Part shown: in pieces, positions 2-10,224 of the stretch
Layout of the letters: every line of letters starts with the position of its first letter
Position numbering within the stretch: the stretch's first letter is position 1
Source: a virus
DNA length: 21,655 nucleotides
Reading direction: 5' to 3' (one strand)
IMG/VR virus record: IMGVR_UViG_3300009154_002002
Coordinates: 1-21,655 of that record
The notes under the pieces: generated by a model
The model's database searches: none
The model's input: only the letters and a program-made list of their open reading frames with translations
Told to the model about the DNA's origin: nothing
Translations under genes and position numbers: made by a program

Positions 2-331
2 AGTCTTACCATCACGCTTAATATCTTACGTTTCCCTAGTTTTCAAAGCCCGTTGGTAATGCCTAGCGAAGTTAAACAACGTTGTAAAGAACAACTACAA
101 CAGTTTCTTGATCGTTGGAGTGATAGCCATTGGTTGCATCAGATGGAGATAGAACATATTCGTCGTCTGATTGAATACTTAAATAGTGTGGAATCGCCAC
201 ATGCTGGTGCTAGTTCAATGGATATATTGCAGCAAGATTTTAAGACATTTTATACTCAGTATGACCAACGCCGTGATAAAAATTTTACAAAAACATTTCC
301 AGAATTGAGTGATTGGTATGACAGTTTATAA
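2..331 (+). CDS. Radical SAM twitch-type protein, C-terminal fragment (cut by window edge)
   Basis: The reading frame is open from the left edge, so this is the last 109 codons of a gene that begins outside the window; the TTG at 53 and ATG at 59 are internal and should not be taken as starts. The fragment aligns by eye with the C-terminal third of the next gene: TLNILRFPSFQSPLVMP matches that protein's NVNILQDPPFF...DILP, and both end in an aromatic-rich segment followed by a FPEL or VPEL motif. The catalytic cysteines would be upstream and cannot be seen. The stop overlaps the next start by 14 bp, so it is translationally linked to the radical SAM array. Family assignment is inference from this similarity. 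Confidence 0.72.
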   Translation, partial: SLTITLNILRFPSFQSPLVMPSEVKQRCKEQLQQFLDRWSDSHWLHQMEIEHIRRLIEYLNSVESPHAGASSMDILQQDFKTFYTQYDQRRDKNFTKTFPELSDWYDSL

Positions 332-1625
332 TTATAATGAAAGAACTCCAGAGTTTATTGAACTAGAAAAACTAGACGAACGACAAAAATTTTTGCTTAT
401 GGAAAGTAAAACTTTTTGTATGTTGCCTTGGACGCATTTGCATGCATTCCCAACAGGACCAGCATATATTTGTTGCGCTGCTGAAATGGATCATCCAGTT
501 GGCAATTTGCGAGAATCTACAATTAAAGAAGTTTGGAATAGTGATGCTATGCGGCAAACTAGAACAAACATGCTTACCGAAAAATCATGTGGGGCTTGTA
601 AAAAATGTTATGAACAAGAAGATGCTGGATTTTTTAGTATGCGTAATAGTAGCAATAAAAGATTTGGTCACCATATCGGCAGAGTTGACAGTACTACCGG
701 CGAAGGACATCTTGAAGAATTAACATTGTCTTATTGGGATATTCGTTTTAGTAATCTATGTAATTTTCGTTGCCGTAGTTGTGGTCATATTTTTAGTTCA
801 AATTGGTATGATGACCAGGTTAAATTGCTCGAAGTTGAAGGAAATGATTCAGAATATTTTAAGAAACATAATAAAAGAATTGAATATGCTGGACGTACAC
901 AATTAGATGTTTGGGAGCAACTAGAGCCGCATCTTGATTATGTTGAACATATCTATTTTGCTGGTGGTGAACCGCTTATTATGGAAGAACACTATCGTAT
1001 TCTTAATGCGTTGCTAAAGAAAGGCAAAAATGATGTAAGACTTATCTATAATACTAACTTTAGTGAATTGCGTTATAAAAAACAAAACGTGTTAGAACTT
1101 TGGAATGAGTTTAGTAATGTATGTGTTGGTGCTAGCCTAGATGCCATGGGACCACTTGCAGAATTAGTACGCAAAGGAACTGACTGGTCACAAACTGAGC
1201 GCAATCGTGAAGAAATGTTGCGTGTATGTCCACAGGTTGACTTTTATATTAGTCCAACATTAAGTGTTATGAACATATGGCAGTTACCTAAATTTCATAA
1301 AGATTGGGTACAAAAAGGTTTTTTAAAACCACAAGATTTAAATGTTAATATTCTACAAGACCCGCCATTTTTTAGAATCGATATACTACCACAAAAGTGT
1401 AAATCTGATATTAAATCAATGTATCTAGAGCATATTGAATGGTTAACGCCTTTAGATAGTTTAAGACGTGCCACGACAGGGTTTGAAAGTGCTATTAATT
1501 TTATGATGGCAGATGATAAAACTAATTTAATACCAAAGTTTTGGGATCGTACAAATAAGATGGATGCAATACGCACTGAAAAATTACTTGACATTGTTCC
1601 AGAGTTAGGAATGTTAAATGGATAA
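318..1625 (+). CDS. Radical SAM protein with N-terminal twitch/SPASM-like domain (copy 1 of 3 complete)
   Basis: This 435-residue protein has an N-terminal cysteine domain (C34, C52, C53, then C91, C94 and C97 in CGACKKC) that resembles a twitch/SPASM auxiliary iron-sulfur cluster site, including the family phrases CxLPW, GNLRES and EVWNS. The radical SAM core follows, with CNFRCRSC (C148, C152, C155; CX3CX2C) to bind the 4Fe-4S cluster and GGEP at 216-219 to bind S-adenosylmethionine. Family knowledge says such enzymes cleave SAM to a 5'-deoxyadenosyl radical; the substrate is unknown. I chose ATG 318 over the upstream GTG 309 because it keeps the overlap with the previous gene short. It overlaps the next gene by 8 bp. 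Confidence 0.9.
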   Translation: MTVYNYNERTPEFIELEKLDERQKFLLMESKTFCMLPWTHLHAFPTGPAYICCAAEMDHPVGNLRESTIKEVWNSDAMRQTRTNMLTEKSCGACKKCYEQEDAGFFSMRNSSNKRFGHHIGRVDSTTGEGHLEELTLSYWDIRFSNLCNFRCRSCGHIFSSNWYDDQVKLLEVEGNDSEYFKKHNKRIEYAGRTQLDVWEQLEPHLDYVEHIYFAGGEPLIMEEHYRILNALLKKGKNDVRLIYNTNFSELRYKKQNVLELWNEFSNVCVGASLDAMGPLAELVRKGTDWSQTERNREEMLRVCPQVDFYISPTLSVMNIWQLPKFHKDWVQKGFLKPQDLNVNILQDPPFFRIDILPQKCKSDIKSMYLEHIEWLTPLDSLRRATTGFESAINFMMADDKTNLIPKFWDRTNKMDAIRTEKLLDIVPELGMLNG

Positions 1626-2781
1626 CTTTTGTGTATTACCTTTTGTAAGTATTGAAGCAGACCCAATGGGTAAATGCAAAGTATGTTGTTTAAGTTATGA
1701 AACTATTCCAGATATTGATTTAAAAACAAATACGCTAACCGAAGCATTTAATAGTTCTTATATGGTTGCGCTTCGTCAAAGTTTCTTAGATGGTGAAAAA
1801 CCTGCTAACTGTAATCGATGTTGGGCAGAAGAAGATAGCGGACGCACAAGCAAACGTATGCATAGCATTTCTAGATTACGGCAAATTATAGGTGACAAAA
1901 AATTTACTAGTAGTAGCGATGGCAGTCTTGCATTTCTTGATTTAAAACTTGGTAACATTTGTAATTTAAAATGTCGTATATGTGGCAGTTTCAGCAGTTC
2001 AAAATGGGCGCAAGAAGAAATTGATATTCATCCTGGCAATACAACTGCTCGTGAAAACCTTGAAAAAGGTCGTTGGCCTCGTGAGGCTCAGCGTTTTTGG
2101 TCAGATTTAACTGAACTTCTAGCAAATTCAAAATATTTTGAGTTTACAGGCGGTGAACCATTTCTTATTGATGAGCACTTTACTCTATTGGAAATAGCAG
2201 TTGAAATGGGATATGCCAAAGACATTGAAATACATTATAATACCAATTTAACTACATTTCCAAAACGTGGATTAGAAATTTGGCCTCATTTTAAATTAGT
2301 TGAAATAGCAGTTAGTGTAGATGATATTGGTCCACGCTTTGAATATCAACGTTATGGTTCTAATTGGGATAAGGCGATGGATAATCTCCAACGTCTTTAT
2401 GATCTCCGTGATACTAATACAAATATTAAATTACAATTATGTATGACTTCAAATGTACAAAACTTCTATTATATTGATGAAATGTGTGAATGGATTGCCC
2501 AACAACGTTTTGATTATGTATATTTTAATGTGCTACATGATGCTTGGCATTTCAGTATTTCACGATTAAATGCTGCTGCAAAAGAACTTATTAATAATAA
2601 ACTTAAAAATTATAGCGGTCCATATAATGACGAAGTTGTTAATTTATTGCAGTTTATGATGCAAGGTGAAGGCAGTGATTGTACTAAACTTGTAGAAGCA
2701 TTAAAGAATAGTGACATTCAACGCAATCAAAAATTTAGTGATCATCATCCAGAAGTAGCAGCGGCGATAGGTTATGAATGA
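1618..2781 (+). CDS. Radical SAM protein with N-terminal twitch/SPASM-like domain (copy 2 of 3 complete)
   Basis: This 387-residue protein has the same plan as its upstream neighbour: FCVLPF at 4-9, the CC pair at 23-24 and CNRC at 65-68 for an N-terminal auxiliary cluster, then CNLKCRIC (C115, C119, C122) and GGEP at 178-181 for the radical SAM core. It is shorter at the N terminus and lacks the third cysteine of the CxxCxxC in copy 1. The ATG overlaps the previous stop by 8 bp. It ends 1 bp from the stop of an antisense homing endonuclease gene, so the operon is physically interrupted here. The sequence is clearly diverged from copies 1 and 3, which argues for different substrates or sub-steps rather than recent duplication. 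Confidence 0.9.
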   Translation: MDNFCVLPFVSIEADPMGKCKVCCLSYETIPDIDLKTNTLTEAFNSSYMVALRQSFLDGEKPANCNRCWAEEDSGRTSKRMHSISRLRQIIGDKKFTSSSDGSLAFLDLKLGNICNLKCRICGSFSSSKWAQEEIDIHPGNTTARENLEKGRWPREAQRFWSDLTELLANSKYFEFTGGEPFLIDEHFTLLEIAVEMGYAKDIEIHYNTNLTTFPKRGLEIWPHFKLVEIAVSVDDIGPRFEYQRYGSNWDKAMDNLQRLYDLRDTNTNIKLQLCMTSNVQNFYYIDEMCEWIAQQRFDYVYFNVLHDAWHFSISRLNAAAKELINNKLKNYSGPYNDEVVNLLQFMMQGEGSDCTKLVEALKNSDIQRNQKFSDHHPEVAAAIGYE

Positions 2782-2782
2782 T

Positions 2783-3391
2783 TTATTTTTTATTCCACGG
2801 TATTTTTCCAAAGTTTGGATTTTTATCTCCTCGTTTGCTTTCACTTAACTTTCTTTTGTGTTCTTCTGATAATTTTCTACCCTTTCTGGAAATTGACATT
2901 TTATTTTTTGCCTCATCGGTGTGTGGAACTCCAACATTCCATGCTTTATGCCCCTTCAATTTATTTCCAATCTCTGCTAATTTTTGATTAGTTTCTTTTG
3001 TCTGTCCTCTATTCCATGCAGTTTTTCCAAACATTGGATTATTTTTTCCTTTGCTCGCATTGCTGAGTTTTTCTCTTGTTTCTTCCTTGACAATAATTTT
3101 ACTTCTACCATCGCCCCCACTTGTCATGTTTAATAAACGACCAGTCCCAAGGTCTTCTCGTCCATAAAAATCAATCAACAATATTTCTATATTATATGCT
3201 TGATTTTCTGTAAGATTTTGATATAATATTATTATTCTATTTTTGTCTTTGGGGGCAGAAACTCTTCTGCCGTGTGTTGCAAATGCTCTTTTACCAATGC
3301 CTTTGCCAATATAATATGGAGTTAAATCAGTTTCTCGTAAAAACGCATAGACATAATAATTTTGTGGGAATTGTTGGGTATTAAATACCAT
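2783..3391 (-). CDS. GIY-YIG homing endonuclease with NUMOD3 motifs
   Basis: The 202-residue product starts with a GIY-YIG nuclease domain: YVYAF at 13-17, YYIGKG at 26-31, R35 and a candidate catalytic E69 in NIEILLIDFYG, followed by NMTSGGDG. The C-terminal half has repeated basic motifs of the NUMOD3 type (KGKNNPMFGK near 114-123 and GDKNPNFGK near 188-196) with WN-containing linkers that bind DNA in homing enzymes. ATG 3391 is preferred to ATG 3412 because AAGGA lies 8 bases before it. It is a free-standing gene, antisense between two radical SAM genes, with no sign of a split exon, so it looks like a SegA-type selfish element rather than an intron or intein passenger. Confidence 0.9.
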   Translation of the reverse strand: MVFNTQQFPQNYYVYAFLRETDLTPYYIGKGIGKRAFATHGRRVSAPKDKNRIIILYQNLTENQAYNIEILLIDFYGREDLGTGRLLNMTSGGDGRSKIIVKEETREKLSNASKGKNNPMFGKTAWNRGQTKETNQKLAEIGNKLKGHKAWNVGVPHTDEAKNKMSISRKGRKLSEEHKRKLSESKRGDKNPNFGKIPWNKK

Positions 3392-3411
3392 TGCTGTGTT
3401 CCTTTTCAACA

Positions 3412-3447
3412 TAGAGTAGGCGGGATTGCAGTCCGTGGCCTACACTA
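3412..3447. repeat. Imperfect inverted repeat at the right edge of the homing endonuclease insertion
   Basis: TAGAGTAGGC (3412-3421) pairs with GCCTACACTA (3438-3447) with one mismatch and a 16 base loop. It lies in the leader of the endonuclease gene on the minus strand and just before the next radical SAM gene on the plus strand. No T run follows on either strand, so it does not look like an intrinsic terminator. It may be an RNA hairpin affecting either gene, or mark the insertion boundary. Confidence 0.5.
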
Positions 3448-3455
3448 TTATTTAG
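3445..3455 (-). promoter_or_regulatory. Possible T4-like late promoter (CTAAATAATAG)
   Basis: On the minus strand this site reads CTAAATAATAG and lies about 50 bases before the endonuclease start. It resembles the TATAAATA-type single-box late promoters of T4-like phages, and a similar CTAAATAAT occurs at 18844-18857. In AT-rich DNA the match is weak evidence. Confidence 0.25.
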
Positions 3456-3462
3456 GCAAATA

Positions 3463-4785
3463 ATGACAGAAAATAATAAAGAACAATTTATGGACTTCTG
3501 CCTAGCCCCATTTACGCACACATTTATTTCTCCTGTCGGTGAAAGACGCCTATGCTGTGCTTCTCGTGAACCTGCACAAAATTTTCAACAGTATATCGAT
3601 ACTGCTGGTGGCGATGGTAAGTTTACGCCACTTACATTAAAAGATTGGTGGAATGGCGAACATATTAGAGAAATTAGAAAACAGTGGTTGGCTGGTGTGG
3701 TTCCTTCTGCTTGCGAAGTATGTGATAAAAAGTTGCTTAACACTTCTGTATATCGTGATTATTTTGGGAACCTCTTTGGGCATTTACGAGGGGACATTGT
3801 TTCTTCTACAGATAGCAATGGCTACACAACCTTAGAACCTATCTCTTGGGACTATCGCTATAGCAATGTATGTAACTTCAAGTGCCGTATGTGTGGCGAT
3901 ATGTTGAGTAGTGCATGGGAAGTTGAAGTTCGTAAAAACAATATGGTTGATTTGTCTAACCCAAAAAATCACTGGATGCAACCTAAAAACCGTCATGCTA
4001 TTCGTGACTTTACTCGTGATGTAGTAATACCAGAGTTTCGTGAAGCTATTGAAAATAAAAGTGTGCGTGAAATCTATTGGGTAGGTGGCGAACCATTACT
4101 CTACGATGAGCATTGGACATTCATGCGGCGAATAATAGAACTTGACTATGCTGACCAAGTTCGTGTAAGATATAATACAAACTTGAGTTATTGTCAGGAT
4201 AAAGAAGGAACCCTATGGGAACTTCTTGAAAATTTCCCACATTGGGAAATATGCGCAAGTTTAGATGGAACAGGAGCAATTGGCGAATATGTTAGGACTG
4301 GCCTTAATTATAGCGAGTGGTATAATAGCTTTCGACGGGGGATTGAATCTTCAAAAACCCCTAGACAAATGCGTATTGATTTTACTCTTACTTTACCTGG
4401 TCTTTACGACCTTGAGAGCATTATCAATTTATCCGATGAACTGAATGTAGAACTGTTGAGCAAGGTTGTATTTGCTTTCTCTCCTGATATACTACTCAGC
4501 CCTCTTGCGCTGCCTAGAACGGTCCTAGAACCACTCCTAGAGGGCATACAGGAGCGTATTAAACCGCTCATCACTCGTCGTACACAAAGTCTTTGGGATG
4601 TGTTAGAACATCTTAAAACTCGCCCTACGTTTGCTGAGCAGTTTCCTAACAATTATAAACAAGAGGCAATAAAAGGCAAAGCACATCTTTTAAAATTGGA
4701 ATCTCTAAGAAAAGATGTTAAAATAAAAATGGAAGACATCTTAACTGGAGATGTTTTGAATTGGTGGAAAAATATTGATGAGTGA
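3463..4785 (+). CDS. Radical SAM protein with N-terminal twitch/SPASM-like domain (copy 3 of 3 complete)
   Basis: The 440-residue protein carries FCLAPF at 12-17, a CC pair at 31-32 and CEVC at 84-87 in the N-terminal auxiliary-cluster region, then CNFKCRMC (C137, C141, C144) and GGEP at 208-211 in the radical SAM core, followed by the conserved YNTNLS stretch also present in the other copies. The start has only a weak AGGC ribosome site, possibly because the homing endonuclease gene displaced the original upstream sequence. Its last 8 bases overlap the next gene (ATGAGTGA), so translational coupling continues to the two unknown proteins downstream. The substrate cannot be deduced from sequence. 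Confidence 0.9.
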   Translation: MTENNKEQFMDFCLAPFTHTFISPVGERRLCCASREPAQNFQQYIDTAGGDGKFTPLTLKDWWNGEHIREIRKQWLAGVVPSACEVCDKKLLNTSVYRDYFGNLFGHLRGDIVSSTDSNGYTTLEPISWDYRYSNVCNFKCRMCGDMLSSAWEVEVRKNNMVDLSNPKNHWMQPKNRHAIRDFTRDVVIPEFREAIENKSVREIYWVGGEPLLYDEHWTFMRRIIELDYADQVRVRYNTNLSYCQDKEGTLWELLENFPHWEICASLDGTGAIGEYVRTGLNYSEWYNSFRRGIESSKTPRQMRIDFTLTLPGLYDLESIINLSDELNVELLSKVVFAFSPDILLSPLALPRTVLEPLLEGIQERIKPLITRRTQSLWDVLEHLKTRPTFAEQFPNNYKQEAIKGKAHLLKLESLRKDVKIKMEDILTGDVLNWWKNIDE

Positions 4786-5887
4786 AATTGCTGTAACGCT
4801 GCGCAATCCCATGCGCAAAGAAGAAAAATTAACATATTATATTAAACCAAATGATACTGGATTAGCACGTGATTGGGTTACTGCTCTTAAATTAGAATTA
4901 CAAAAAAATAGTGAACTTGAAAAAAATTATTGTTGGCATGGTTGGCCAAACGGTGCACGTGACCTTAATTATCTATGCAAAGAATTGCGCAAGCATACAC
5001 TTAGAATTTACACCTTTAACGAAATTGGTGTATGGCAATCGGCTGGATTAGATAGTATAAACATTAAAACTTTCTACACACCCGCAACTGTAATGCTACC
5101 ATTAACAGATGATCCTAGTAGCGGTGGACCAAATCACGAAGTAATGAATGAAGTCCATAATTATTTTGAACACTTACAAGGCACGGTTGAAAATTTAAGT
5201 TTGTACTATAAACTTGCGCCTCCAAATGTAAAATATAGTATTAGGCAAGTTAACAATCTGTGTCATGAAATTGAAACACTTTGTTTAAGTTTACGCAAGC
5301 AAAGATTTAAACCTGAATGGATTCGTCCATCTCAAATTACTACTTTTTTAAATGCTACTCGTTATAATCTAACTGCAGAGCATCGTGAAGGATTTACTGT
5401 AAATGGACATGATCGCAGGTTTGCACATGTTTATATGCATTGGACACAGATTGGCAAAACACTTATGGAAGTATTTCGTGATGAAGGCGCTCCCGTATTA
5501 GACCAAGCAACCTGTGATGCTATCACACATTTACAATATTATAGCGGTGAGTTTGATATTGAGTGGGGTCGTGATGTTACGATGAATTTAAGTCCTTGGC
5601 TACGAGAAGAAGTGGTTAAATTTAATGAATGGTTAGTTCGTGAAGGTTATGATCCACAAGATACTAATCTAAGTCTAGGTTATCTTGAACTTGGACATAT
5701 TGATTTAGAACGCAGTTTTGGAACACATGATATTTTCAAAATTTGGGATGTTATGGGTGATAAACTTGATATCTATTCTATAGAAGTGGATGGCATCAAG
5801 GCAATATATGATTATAGTTGGGCTGATGCAGACCATGAACAACGTCAAATTGATTATTTGATGCCTGGTTATAATAGCCATGTTTGA
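4778..5887 (+). CDS. Conserved phage protein of unknown function, radical SAM operon
   Basis: This 369-residue soluble-looking protein is not one I can assign to a named family. It is rich in tryptophan, histidine and tyrosine (WHGWPNGARDL near 37, HEVMNEVHNYFEHLQ in the first third, NGHDRRFAHVYMHW and SGEFDIEWGRD in the second half) with no signal peptide, membrane segment or cysteine cluster. The many paired His, Glu and Asp residues would suit a metal site, but no standard motif is complete. ATG 4778 is chosen over the TTG three bases upstream; it overlaps the preceding radical SAM gene by 8 bp and the following gene by 8 bp, so all are made together. A role as substrate or partner of the radical SAM enzymes is inference only. 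Confidence 0.8.
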   Translation: MSEIAVTLRNPMRKEEKLTYYIKPNDTGLARDWVTALKLELQKNSELEKNYCWHGWPNGARDLNYLCKELRKHTLRIYTFNEIGVWQSAGLDSINIKTFYTPATVMLPLTDDPSSGGPNHEVMNEVHNYFEHLQGTVENLSLYYKLAPPNVKYSIRQVNNLCHEIETLCLSLRKQRFKPEWIRPSQITTFLNATRYNLTAEHREGFTVNGHDRRFAHVYMHWTQIGKTLMEVFRDEGAPVLDQATCDAITHLQYYSGEFDIEWGRDVTMNLSPWLREEVVKFNEWLVREGYDPQDTNLSLGYLELGHIDLERSFGTHDIFKIWDVMGDKLDIYSIEVDGIKAIYDYSWADADHEQRQIDYLMPGYNSHV

Positions 5888-7433
5888 TATAGTTTGGTAT
5901 GATTATAGTGATGGTGATATTGAAATTTTAATTGCGAAAGCAAAACAATGTAGCAAAACAGAATATGTATGGCTTGCTAATCGTGATGTAGATTATAGCA
6001 AGTTTAATTTTCGTTGGATGCCTAACCGCCATCAGTTACAATATAAACATGCTTGGCCAAGCCATAACAATGCGCAACATTATTCAACATGGTTGATACC
6101 AGTAGATAATGATAACGGAACCGTACATCACGATGAAATATTGTCTGCAAGTGATAACAAATATTATGATACATGTTTGTTAAACACTAATAGTTTTGAT
6201 AATACACATTCGGTAGATTTTCAAGTTCGTTTAATAACCACCATGCAAGCAGCGATTGATTCTGCTGTTAATAAATGCACAAAACCTTGGTTATGGATTA
6301 TAGCAGATTGCTGTGATTATGATGGATTTGATTTTAGTTGGTTGCCTAGCAATCATGATATGAACTATATCCATTGTTGGCCAAGTGGAACCTGTGAGAA
6401 GGGCGATACCTTTTTAATAAATGCAGATGCTTATAAGAGAGGCGAACAAAATTATAATTTTGATCATGTGCCAATAAAACGCAAACGTTGGCCAAATATT
6501 AAAATTACACAAGATAGTTTGGCAAGAGAACTTAATCTAACTAACAGATTAAATGCCATATACACTGTTTACTCGCATACTGGATTTGTTGATTATCCAG
6601 ATGTTTGCTTATGGGATAAAAGACCAGTAATTAGCATCAATAAAAACAATAGCACCACGCTTGTGCCACGAGATTGCATTGTAAAAGATGAACTATATGA
6701 ATACCCACATCTGCTACGTTATCCGCAATATGGGTTTGATGCACTCAATGATATTATTTTTATATCCTATGATGAACCAGAAGCAGATGCCAACTGGTAT
6801 AAACTAGTAGAAAAATTTCCACGTGCTAAACGAGTTCATGGTGTTAGCGGAATGGAAAATGCTCTTAAAGCAGCAGCAGGCAAATCTGATACGCCGTACT
6901 TCTATGCTGTATTTGCCAAGACTGAAATTCATCCAACATTTAATTTTGACATTGGTGCTGACTATTGGCAAAAACCCAAACACTATATATTTTATAGTGA
7001 GAACACTGTTAATGGTTTGCGTTATGGTCACATGGGAATCGTATTATATAATCGGGATATGGTGCTAAATGCTCCACCATTTGGCGAGTTTGGCACTGAT
7101 TATACCTTGAGTTTTGATCACGAAGTTGTGCCTATTGTTTCTTGCTATGGTTCTTTCAATGCTTCTCCTTATCATACTTGGAGAACAGCGTTTCGTGAAG
7201 CACACAAACTTCGTGAATTTACAGATACAATGCCAAACGTTGAAACACAATATAGATTACATATTTGGCACACGATTGCTAATGGTAATTATGCTGAATG
7301 GGCATTACGTGGTGCTAATGATGGTGTACGTTTCTATGAAGATAACATGGATACGCCAGAGATTCGTCGCAACACATTTCGTTGGGAATGGTTGCGCAAT
7401 CACTTTACTCAATTATATGGTGATGTCCAATAA
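5880..7433 (+). CDS. Multi-module phage protein resembling glycosyltransferase-like proteins
   Basis: The 517-residue product contains two clear copies of a module: TEYVWLANRDVDYSKFNF..W.P ending in HAWPS (27-61) and KPWLWIIADCCDYDGFDF..W.P ending in HCWPSG (135-170). A third, more diverged copy runs from 338 to 375 (TPYFYAVFAKTEI, TFNF, YIFYSEN). From 291 the segment FISYDEPEADANW, FPRAKRVHGV and SPYHTWRTAFRE resembles, from memory, a group of marine T4-like phage proteins annotated as glycosyltransferase-like with a GT-A-like core; the DxD position appears replaced by FAKTE in copy three, while copies one and two keep NRDVD and ADCCDYD. Last gene of the plus-strand operon; its stop overlaps the convergent oxidoreductase gene by 21 bp. 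Confidence 0.75.
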   Translation: MFDIVWYDYSDGDIEILIAKAKQCSKTEYVWLANRDVDYSKFNFRWMPNRHQLQYKHAWPSHNNAQHYSTWLIPVDNDNGTVHHDEILSASDNKYYDTCLLNTNSFDNTHSVDFQVRLITTMQAAIDSAVNKCTKPWLWIIADCCDYDGFDFSWLPSNHDMNYIHCWPSGTCEKGDTFLINADAYKRGEQNYNFDHVPIKRKRWPNIKITQDSLARELNLTNRLNAIYTVYSHTGFVDYPDVCLWDKRPVISINKNNSTTLVPRDCIVKDELYEYPHLLRYPQYGFDALNDIIFISYDEPEADANWYKLVEKFPRAKRVHGVSGMENALKAAAGKSDTPYFYAVFAKTEIHPTFNFDIGADYWQKPKHYIFYSENTVNGLRYGHMGIVLYNRDMVLNAPPFGEFGTDYTLSFDHEVVPIVSCYGSFNASPYHTWRTAFREAHKLREFTDTMPNVETQYRLHIWHTIANGNYAEWALRGANDGVRFYEDNMDTPEIRRNTFRWEWLRNHFTQLYGDVQ

Positions 7434-8288
7434 AAAGTGTGCAATATCAATATAATCTGCAATTTTTCTAGCATATTTTAAATCACTATCTGGCGTAGCA
7501 CGAGTTTCAACACAATTAATAAAATGTGCTAATTCATTTTCTAGTGGGTCTGGTAAATTATTAAAATCCCAATACTCATCTGGATCATTTAAATGGAGTT
7601 TGGCACCTACAATATTGTTCTCATATATACGCAGTGTTCTTGTGTCATCATTCCATATTGCTTGTGCCTTATCACCGATAACAGTGACCTCACGTTTGCG
7701 TTCAGGATGCAGCCAACTAACATCAATATGCCAGTTTGTTCCATTAACTAGCACACGGTCAGGATATGGACTGTTAGGACTGTACTTAAATCCTTGTGCA
7801 CTACGAACATGCAAATCGCCTAACAGATAACTTACAATAGTAAAATCATGTGGTGCTAAACTTAGCAGCGGAGTTGTCTTAGTTTGGTAAATGCCAAGAT
7901 TAGTGCGAACGCTATTAACAAATTGAACCTCGCCAAGTCTACCGCTATCAATAAGGTCTTTGAGTTTATGTAGGATTGGATTATACATATAAATGTGTCC
8001 AACCATTACAATATTATCTTTTGTCAGTTTAACAAGTTCTGCTATTTGGTCATAGTTTTCAGCGGCTGGTTTTTCAATATAAACATCATGTCCACGATCA
8101 ATAAGATACTTTGCTTGTTCATAGTGATCCCATAGCGGTGTTGCCAACATAACAGGATCAAGAGTGTCAATGTCATTTATCGTTTGACCATTTTTAATAT
8201 CAATGATAGAGTAATCTATTTGTAGTTTTTCCAACTTGGTTGCAATCTTACTTCCCCAATAACCCGAACCTACTAACCAAATCTTCAT
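7413..8288 (-). CDS. Gfo/Idh/MocA family NAD(P)-dependent sugar oxidoreductase
   Basis: The 291-residue protein begins with a Rossmann nucleotide-binding motif (GSGYWG, 7-12) and carries the family's EKP motif at 72-74, whose lysine takes part in catalysis, then the substrate-side APHDF segment in a Gfo/Idh C-terminal domain. ATG 8288 gives the correct Rossmann N terminus and overlaps the aminotransferase stop in ATGA; the longer upstream form would add 22 unrelated residues. Gfo/Idh enzymes paired with DegT aminotransferases oxidise a nucleotide sugar, typically at C3, so the ketone can be aminated, as in WbpB/WbpE. That pathway role is inference from the neighbours. Somewhat shorter than bacterial relatives, as usual in phages. 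Confidence 0.88.
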   Translation of the reverse strand: MKIWLVGSGYWGSKIATKLEKLQIDYSIIDIKNGQTINDIDTLDPVMLATPLWDHYEQAKYLIDRGHDVYIEKPAAENYDQIAELVKLTKDNIVMVGHIYMYNPILHKLKDLIDSGRLGEVQFVNSVRTNLGIYQTKTTPLLSLAPHDFTIVSYLLGDLHVRSAQGFKYSPNSPYPDRVLVNGTNWHIDVSWLHPERKREVTVIGDKAQAIWNDDTRTLRIYENNIVGAKLHLNDPDEYWDFNNLPDPLENELAHFINCVETRATPDSDLKYARKIADYIDIAHFLLDITI

Positions 8289-9352
8289 GCTTGCCACTCC
8301 CAAATTTTGTCGATAATATAATCTTGTTGTGCTTCTGTTAGCGTATGATAGCATGGCAAACTTAGGATACGCTTGCTTGCACTTTCACAGTTGGGCAGAG
8401 ATGCGTTATACTTGCTAAATGCTGGTTGCATATGACACGGTATAGGATAATGGATATTGGTTGCTATACCGCATTCTTTTAAGTATGCTGCAAAGTCATC
8501 ACGGTTTTCAACTTCAATGACATATACATAATAAACATGATCACTTAATCCAGATTTCTTTGGTGTCTTCACAACATGGTTTAATTCAACATCATATCTT
8601 GCGGCAACACGTTTGCGACCTTCATTCCATTCTTTCAAGTATGGAAGTTTAGCAAGAAGAATGTTGGCTTGTAAGTTATCAATTCTAGCATTGTATCCAA
8701 TTTCTTCAAACACAAACTTGGTATTGCGTCCGTGATCACGGAACATTCTGGCACGTTCTATTAGTTCAGGTTTGCCCACAACCGCACCAGCATCGCCCAT
8801 TGCTCCAAAGTTCTTGATAGGATTAAACGAGAAGCAGTTAAGATCAGCAATATTCATAATAGCACTACCAAAACTGTGTGCACTATCATTGATAAGTTTT
8901 AATCCATACTCGTCTGCATAATAGCGAAGAGCATGAATATCGCAGCTTTGTCCATACGCATCCATTGCAAGTATGGCTTTTGTTTTTGGAGTAATATGTT
9001 TCTTTAACTCGTAAGGCGATAATTGATAAAATTCATCAATATCGATCATAACAGGTATGGCACCAATATTAACAATAGCCTCTACGGTACTTACAAATGT
9101 ATGGCTGGTGGTTATAACTTCGTCACCGATGCCTATATCACATGCTTTAAGAGCCACTTGTAGGGCGGTTGTGCAACTACCTGTGCTAGCAACGGCTGGC
9201 ACACCAAGATATTCAGCTAGGGTAGTTTCAAACTTGATTACATCAGGACCAGTGATAAAGCTGTTGGTAGCAATCGTGTGCGCAATCGCTGCATCAATGC
9301 TACTCTTGGCTTCCTGATATTGTGATTGTAAATCTGTAAATGGAATATTCAT
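8285..9352 (-). CDS. DegT/DnrJ/EryC1/StrS family PLP-dependent sugar aminotransferase
   Basis: The 355-residue protein has the full family layout: ITGPDVIKFE near 33-42, STGSCTTALQVAL at 56-68, GDEVITTSHTFVSTVEAI, the cofactor region INDSAHSFGS (154-163) and SFNPIKNFGAMGDAGAV, where K180 should form the internal aldimine with pyridoxal phosphate. The C-terminal NIHYPIPCHMQPAF segment is also typical. Such enzymes transfer an amino group to a keto sugar nucleotide. It overlaps its neighbours on both sides by ATGA, which gives a tightly coupled epimerase-aminotransferase-oxidoreductase set. The exact sugar and ring position cannot be read from sequence. Confidence 0.93.
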   Translation of the reverse strand: MNIPFTDLQSQYQEAKSSIDAAIAHTIATNSFITGPDVIKFETTLAEYLGVPAVASTGSCTTALQVALKACDIGIGDEVITTSHTFVSTVEAIVNIGAIPVMIDIDEFYQLSPYELKKHITPKTKAILAMDAYGQSCDIHALRYYADEYGLKLINDSAHSFGSAIMNIADLNCFSFNPIKNFGAMGDAGAVVGKPELIERARMFRDHGRNTKFVFEEIGYNARIDNLQANILLAKLPYLKEWNEGRKRVAARYDVELNHVVKTPKKSGLSDHVYYVYVIEVENRDDFAAYLKECGIATNIHYPIPCHMQPAFSKYNASLPNCESASKRILSLPCYHTLTEAQQDYIIDKIWEWQA

Positions 9353-10224
9353 TTAATAAGTTTCTGTATACCGTCTTCTAGACTAACCTTTGGTGTGTAT
9401 CCAAGATACTGCACAGCACGGCGAATATCCATAGCACCACGCCTTGGCATATTAAATGGTATACCATCACCATACACGATTTCACTCTGTGTGTTGGTCC
9501 AACCTTTGATAATATCAATTGCGTCTTGCAGAGTTCTTGCTTGACCATAACTTACATTGGCAATTAAATTATTGGTATCAAACATTGCAGCATTGGCAAT
9601 TGCCTGTGCAGTGTCTTCTACGTAGGTAAAATCAAGTGTAGCATGTGGATCATCTACATGAATTGGTTCTTGATTTGCTGCAGCTTTAACCCATTTAGAG
9701 ATAACACGATTGCCATCATCACGATTACCATATACAGCAGTTGGACGAATAATTACCCAACGTTTAGCAATAACCCTGACTAATTGCTCACATTCTTGTT
9801 TAGCCTTGCCATAATCATTGATAGGTTTTAGTGGCGCATCTTCACCAATTACACCGCTCCAATCACTATAAACCATGCTGCTAGAAATATACACCATCTT
9901 TGCATTAGGGTAGGCAGTCAGCATATGTAAGGTGCTTTGGATAGCGTTCTTCCATGCTGCTACGCCATCTCTGGCAAAGGATGCTTGATTGGGGTGGCAA
10001 GCAAGGTGAACAATCACGTCTACATCCTGAATAATAGTGCTCGTACAGTCTGCATTGATCCAATCATCATATGCAAAATCCATATATCGCCCACGTGCCA
10101 TATAAAGTTCAGTGTTGATAAAACGCAAATCATCAATGATAGTAACCTGATGACCACCATCCTTTAAACGTTTTACAACATGATGCCCAATAAAACCAAA
10201 GCCGCCTGTAACTAATACGTGCAT
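9349..10224 (-). CDS. NAD-dependent epimerase/dehydratase (extended SDR), nucleotide-sugar enzyme
   Basis: This 291-residue extended short-chain dehydrogenase has TGGFGFIG at 6-13 for NAD binding, D31/D32 at the end of the second strand (favouring NAD over NADP), SSSMVYS at 114-120 and the catalytic YxxxK as Y138 and K142, then IIRPTAVYG, a typical substrate-side segment. It belongs with GalE and RmlB-type nucleotide-sugar epimerases and dehydratases; which reaction it performs is not clear. Its ATG lies 1 base after the thymidylate synthase stop and its own stop overlaps the aminotransferase start by 4 bases, so a sugar cassette has been joined directly to the nucleotide-metabolism genes. 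Confidence 0.92.
   Translation of the reverse strand: MHVLVTGGFGFIGHHVVKRLKDGGHQVTIIDDLRFINTELYMARGRYMDFAYDDWINADCTSTIIQDVDVIVHLACHPNQASFARDGVAAWKNAIQSTLHMLTAYPNAKMVYISSSMVYSDWSGVIGEDAPLKPINDYGKAKQECEQLVRVIAKRWVIIRPTAVYGNRDDGNRVISKWVKAAANQEPIHVDDPHATLDFTYVEDTAQAIANAAMFDTNNLIANVSYGQARTLQDAIDIIKGWTNTQSEIVYGDGIPFNMPRRGAMDIRRAVQYLGYTPKVSLEDGIQKLIK

Follow-up and report, generated by a model that had tools for sequence, protein, structure and literature searches.

What might a phage do with several different radical SAM enzymes encoded side by side? The question is raised by IMGVR_UViG_3300009154_002002, a linear viral record of 21,655 bases, the whole of which was analysed (hereafter, the window). 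The original prediction described three complete radical SAM genes and the tail of a fourth, followed by a 369-residue protein, and this inventory is borne out. The plus strand encodes RS1 (435 amino acids; positions 318–1625), RS2 (387 amino acids; 1618–2781) and RS3 (440 amino acids; 3463–4785). All three are members of the N-twitch radical SAM family NF033640 (N_Twi_rSAM, NCBIfam), scoring 395, 341 and 264 bits (E-values 4e-118, 1e-101 and 2e-78) against a curated cut-off of 170 bits. Note that a GTG at position 309 is also open as the RS1 start, and that an alternative RS3 start, at 3490, is nearer to the one used in relatives. The record begins inside the fourth gene, RS0, of which the C-terminal part is present (2–331, plus strand). 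This fragment aligns with the last 95 positions of NF033640 (304–398) and is too short for the cut-off (58 bits). Relatives have a full-length orthologue at the RS0 position.

Each complete copy contains the expected motifs. For RS1, RS2 and RS3 respectively, CX3CX2C is found at residue 148, 115 and 137, GGEP is found at residue 216, 178 and 208, and an N-terminal cysteine set is present in every case. Across full-length array homologues, CX3CX2C is kept in all 456 sequences scanned. Inside each orthologue group, an N-terminal C..C..CxxC of the auxiliary-cluster type is invariant or nearly so, and GGEP is kept too. By family score and cluster-binding motifs, the array genes are predicted to encode radical SAM enzymes. 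Searches of PDB sequences with RS1, and with the downstream proteins P370 and P517, gave no match of weight. When phage records were searched by tblastn, RS1 and RS3 matched only Vibrio phages K566/K567, at 22–23% identity; a further enzyme found in relatives (RSx), P370, P517 and a 321-amino-acid upstream protein had no match. Separately, a Bacteriovoracaceae contig (L184, 6612–7967) encodes a radical SAM protein with an RS3-type N-terminus (CIAPWTHTYLSPQAERRLCCASRE), which may be a cellular relative of RS3.

Is the array a stable unit? Relatives came from a pair of viral-contig searches, with P370 as the seed in the first (26 loci) and RS3 in the second (80 kept out of at least 595 relatives); together, these covered 94 contigs. 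The unit runs in the order P517-like protein, RSx, RS0, RS1, RS2, variable slot, RS3, P370, P517 and facing sugar genes. On related IMG/VR contigs it is often bounded by thyA and DHFR genes, beyond the sugar genes; more distant contigs have extra genes inserted between P370 and P517. Hence, the sequence upstream of RS0, read through relatives, supplies both a P517-like protein and a fifth radical SAM gene, RSx. The proposal of four radical enzymes in one operon holds as regards a multi-enzyme set, but the set in relatives has five members. Pairwise identity among the copies in the window is 29–33% and, in a tree of 20 sampled loci, sequences from each array position group in a separate clade with good support. 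The copies are consequently old paralogues kept in register, as opposed to a recent expansion, and the five clades keep one order across contigs. Among RS3-seeded loci, P370 follows RS3 directly in 54 of 58, and is at most three genes away in 57; RS0 and RS1 are upstream in 48 of 50. The array genes, with their common neighbours, are thus not scattered singletons in relatives, although the same genomes also hold scattered single copies. These comparisons support an ancient, strongly diverged and co-inherited radical-enzyme set in phage.

Head-to-tail overlap, in a continuous coupled operon, had been anticipated. In the window, RS0/RS1, RS1/RS2, RS3/P370 and P370/P517 do overlap, and the operon-like unit runs on past 5887 into P517 (5880–7433). 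RS2 and RS3 do not overlap; they are 681 nt apart, and the gap contains a minus-strand gene for a NUMOD3/GIY-YIG-like homing endonuclease (2783–3412; PF07460, 3e-25; PHROG homing endonuclease). Because of this insertion, the continuous operon is broken in the window genome. In relatives, the RS2 stop overlaps the RS3 start (ATGAATGA). This is the ancestral junction, where the RS3 start lay in the RS2 stop. The endonuclease occurs exactly at this junction in the window and in L014 (7996–8625), and is absent there in L010, L011 and L013. Between the window and L014, 854 bp spanning the endonuclease are 98% identical, whereas RS2 and RS3 are ~80% identical; the pattern looks as it would after recent homing with co-conversion. 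The endonuclease is no part of the pathway.

We turn now to the partner, P370 (369 amino acids; 4778–5887, plus strand), found 3' of RS3 in relatives. Originally called unassignable, it still is, with no Pfam, PHROG, NCBIfam or PADLOC match. In the AF2 model (pLDDT 93), a barrel that is cyclophilin-like in part carries a helical insert at residues 60–177. Note that the likeness to cyclophilins (VIA-align Z ~10) extends over 137 of 369 residues, at 7–12% identity, with a Foldseek E that is not significant; a Foldseek search of the model against the PDB gave no match of weight. Two helices of the insert carry the invariant residues H127/E131 and C162/H163/E164/E166, a putative metal site. The matches that reach significance in BFVD are to phage proteins whose function is not known. 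One fold match in BFVD, a protein of phage Atu_ph07, is without sequence backing, because hhalign of P370 with the 300-amino-acid proteins of Atu_ph07 and Phosso gives a probability of 0.6%. No P370 relative was found in a pattern scan of cellular genomes. Shorter, distant relatives are encoded beside a ClpP-like or helicase-like gene (L211, 11955–12821; L219, 4959–5858; L220, 874–1779), and an N-twitch radical SAM gene is close by in only a part of these cases. The wider P370 family is thus not tied to radical SAM genes, and P370 as their strict partner everywhere is ruled out.

The next gene encodes P517 (5880–7433, plus strand), a modular protein. In its AF2 model (pLDDT 91), residues 289–426 match GT-A enzymes (Foldseek; VIA-align Z 9–11), and the C-terminal domain is predicted to have a GT-A glycosyltransferase fold. 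From sequence and secondary structure, we read two further repeats of this kind. Among relatives, P517 ranges from ~430 to >1300 amino acids. The DxD motif is absent from all 38 aligned sequences, and an invariant lysine motif (VFAK-like) is found instead; most P517-like upstream proteins retain DxD. Metal-independent GT-A enzymes exist. Alternatively, P517 may be non-catalytic after DxD loss.

Facing P517, on the minus strand, is a cassette of sugar genes. These encode a Gfo/Idh/MocA dehydrogenase (7413–8354, with a likely start near 8288; PF01408, 6e-07), a DegT-family sugar aminotransferase (8285–9352; PF01041, 2e-97) and an NAD-dependent nucleotide-sugar epimerase/dehydratase (9349–10224; PF01370, 2e-32), the last matching UDP-sugar epimerases in the PDB. 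The dehydrogenase is nearest to the UDP-GlcNAc 3-dehydrogenase model NF040723 (1.5e-26), well below its cut-off. For the DegT protein, the nearest PDB chains are 7b0d, QdtB, WbpE and other sugar aminotransferases, which we take to be largely C3-specific; the window enzyme is probably C3-specific as well. Together, the cassette enzymes probably make a UDP-3-amino sugar, by way of the epimerase, C3 oxidation by the Gfo/Idh protein and C3 amination by the DegT protein. In one relative, L009, the cassette has a DesII homologue (328 bits, below the cut-off of 450) and two DegT genes instead.

In 16 loci, similarity of the C-terminal 240 amino acids of P517 tracks the sugar-gene families present (Mantel rho 0.52, p 0.001). 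RS2 does so weakly (rho 0.37, p 0.02), and there is no such co-variation for P370, RS1, RS3, thyA or the P517 N-terminus. Physical linkage of P517 and the cassette may contribute. Note, however, that thyA flanks the other side of the cassette, so simple linkage does not explain all of the effect.

Accessory genes and bacterial relatives were also considered. Open reading frames of the carbamoyltransferase cluster occur in 59 loci and SGNH-like proteins in 51; some loci add an APS-kinase-like or B12-radical SAM protein. Bacterial relatives comprise 78 loci, and 34 genomes were searched for carbamoyltransferase proximity. In 10 of the 34, a carbamoyltransferase gene is at most 15 kb from an NF033640 gene, against ~1 expected from random placement; that model takes no account of the tendency of polysaccharide genes to cluster, and the excess therefore signifies shared neighbourhoods and not a direct pair. 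Bacterial locus L120 has genes for a UDP-sugar dehydrogenase, an epimerase and a glycosyltransferase around it. Pfam families of bacterial neighbours are too mixed for a call. Carbamoyltransferases, the DesII homologue and the bacterial excess point to glycan tailoring. Of the substrates named in the original prediction of a multi-step modification (peptide, sugar or nucleotide), the neighbourhood favours sugar or glycan, a choice made from gene context. As a separate observation, N-twitch radical SAM genes are spread over many contigs of an Elusimicrobia bin (MJ-2014_bin-0981), with as many as six in tandem (L121, L123–L125, L127–L130, L132–L134, L137, L138 and L146).

Which phages carry the array, and where? 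The gp23 major capsid protein (PF07068) was detected above cut-off in six of six related array-bearing records (~1e-99 in five), and several array-bearing records exceed 330 kb. Typed on these related records, the carriers appear to be T4-like, often jumbo, uncultured water phages. In the two relatives where upstream sequence was read (L190 and L192), tail-fibre genes come just before the array. Encoded there, on its strand, are a giant protein, which in L190 is a structural protein of the virion, and several proteins resembling tail fibres. The T4 late-promoter motif TATAAATA is found once, against ~28 copies expected from base composition only (not a shuffle), summed over nine stretches (window, L190, L191, L192, L008, L010, L013, L046 and L064). 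No copy is beside any array gene in these stretches, and T4-type late control of the array is unsupported. Eight near-identical promoter-like sites, each matching a TTGACA-type pattern exactly, are on the minus strand of the window, all outside the array (15467, 16521, 16864, 17095, 17353, 18163, 20787 and 21618); none was found on the plus strand.

This arrangement bears on where a modified glycan would be placed. Conceivably, the same chemistry acts on the host envelope, remodelling LPS or capsule in the course of infection, against superinfection or to free progeny from debris. Such a role has been suggested for glycosyltransferases of the host-recognition cluster of marine pelagimyophages, which also has radical SAM cassettes (PMC7029224), and some loci of the bacterial relatives are surrounded by polysaccharide genes. 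Against this, the array shares its strand with virion structural genes and comes right after them, and all strong promoters of TTGACA type in the window are on the other strand. We regard the envelope as a rather unlikely target, while accepting that the evidence separates virion and envelope acceptors weakly.

Not all related genes have sugar neighbours. In each of the 20 records examined, NF033640 has between 4 and 15 matches. Most copies outside the array are scattered, among replication-type genes and without sugar genes. Several times, a scattered copy is followed by a small protein of ~150 amino acids (L195, 6277–6729; L199, 6289–6753; L205, 6241–6690), possibly a partner or substrate. 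In the cultured rhizobial jumbo phages Phosso (L193, 22618–29742) and Atu_ph07 (L194, 22086–28247), several radical SAM genes interleaved with proteins of unknown function occupy a site equivalent to that of the array, preceded by genes for a giant virion protein and, directly, for one resembling a tail fibre. These enzymes are without the N-terminal twitch, match array profiles weakly, and have no recognised sugar genes at the locus.

SPASM/twitch radical SAM enzymes often act on peptides. Hence, the array might cross-link, epimerise or otherwise modify tail-fibre residues or a peptide, with the sugar genes as chance neighbours or a separate system. In the rhizobial phages, radical SAM genes are kept behind tail-fibre genes and no sugar genes were recognised with them, which fits such a role, as does the ~150-amino-acid protein after some scattered copies. 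Conversely, overlapping array genes in the window leave no space for a precursor gene (relatives were scanned for open reading frames of at least 80 amino acids), the P370 model is no winged-helix recognition domain, and the sugar context is strong. On balance, peptide modification seems doubtful.

A further possibility is hypermodification of nucleotides or DNA, or synthesis of antiviral nucleotides as by viperin. The thyA and DHFR genes, identified from sequence, are just past the sugar cassette on the minus strand, and the radical SAM cores match viperin models weakly. However, these matches reach 19–26 bits, against an NCBIfam cut-off of 180, and weak pVip matches are to the radical SAM core only; viperin itself is excluded. 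Furthermore, none of the module's genes was recognised as one for DNA modification, and thyA identity does not track the cassette. We consider nucleotide chemistry highly improbable.

Glycan tailoring linked to the host-recognition apparatus is, from gene context, the best-supported reading. Specifically, the five radical SAM enzymes, P370 and P517 may form one module, within a tail-fibre or host-recognition cluster, that makes or tailors an unusual sugar-containing decoration (probability roughly 0.45). In favour are the fixed five-clade order, P370 beside RS3, the tail-fibre position, the GT-A fold of P517 and co-variation of its C-terminus with the cassette, the DegT type, DesII in L009, the carbamoyltransferases and L120. 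Opposing evidence comprises the loss of DxD from P517, scattered N-twitch genes among replication-type genes, the rhizobial loci without recognised sugar genes, and the linkage and weak RS2 signal that complicate the co-variation. In such a module, the reverse-strand cassette would make an amino-sugar nucleotide, and P517 and the P517-like upstream protein would transfer sugars. RSx and RS0–RS3 would each carry out a single radical reaction on the sugar or glycan, whether oxidation, dehydration, epimerisation or bond formation. P370, whose helical insert has possible metal ligands, could hold the substrate or do a linked non-radical step. The acceptor would most likely be a virion tail-fibre protein, and less likely the host envelope. 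The complete scheme, in which a dedicated five-step radical pathway with a phage-specific partner, P370, installs a chemically new glycan or glycoprotein modification on tail fibres, and the terminal sugar is swapped via the P517 C-terminus and cassettes, is tentative, and we think it somewhat unlikely as a whole. If true, radical chemistry that is sensitive to oxygen serves phages in making surface decorations, with a bearing on host recognition, defence evasion and new glycan-modifying enzymes.

How does this compare with known systems? NF033640 has the N-terminal twitch and radical SAM core in common with RS1–RS3, which score above its cut-off; the model is silent on a five-member ordered array, P370 or function. 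DesII (dTDP-4-amino-4,6-dideoxyglucose ammonia-lyase) is a radical SAM enzyme of nucleotide-sugar biosynthesis with a homologue in the L009 cassette, but the array enzymes are not DesII, and the window cassette is without it. The 3-amino pathways of WbpB/WbpE or GnnA/GnnB type combine a Gfo/Idh protein and a DegT C3-aminotransferase, as does the window cassette, which has an extra epimerase; likeness to GnnA and WbpB is by gene type only. Mycobacteriophage glycosyltransferases decorate virion proteins (Freeman et al. 2023, as cited in PMC12619734); those phages are unrelated, and the passage in PMC12619734 mentions no radical SAM enzymes. N-twitch radical SAM proteins, and radical SAM cassettes in T4-like host-recognition clusters, are already known (PMC7029224, PMC5332604). 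T4-like marine phages carry several radical SAM genes, with glycosyltransferases also in the pelagimyophage cluster (PMC7029224), and one T4-like genome has 12 (PMC5332604). Compared by description only, the passages on these cassettes mention no ordered orthologous array, constant partner or sugar co-variation. Similarly, a unit of five enzymes in fixed order, with P370 and sugar modules that can be exchanged, had no match in the limited literature searched, and the ordered unit with P370 looks undescribed. T4-like phages rich in radical SAM genes were noted earlier to carry iron-sulfur genes for which no pathway is known (PMC5332604). An ordered array that has one constant partner, is linked to tail-fibre genes and comes with sugar cassettes that can be exchanged would give such phages a specific one.
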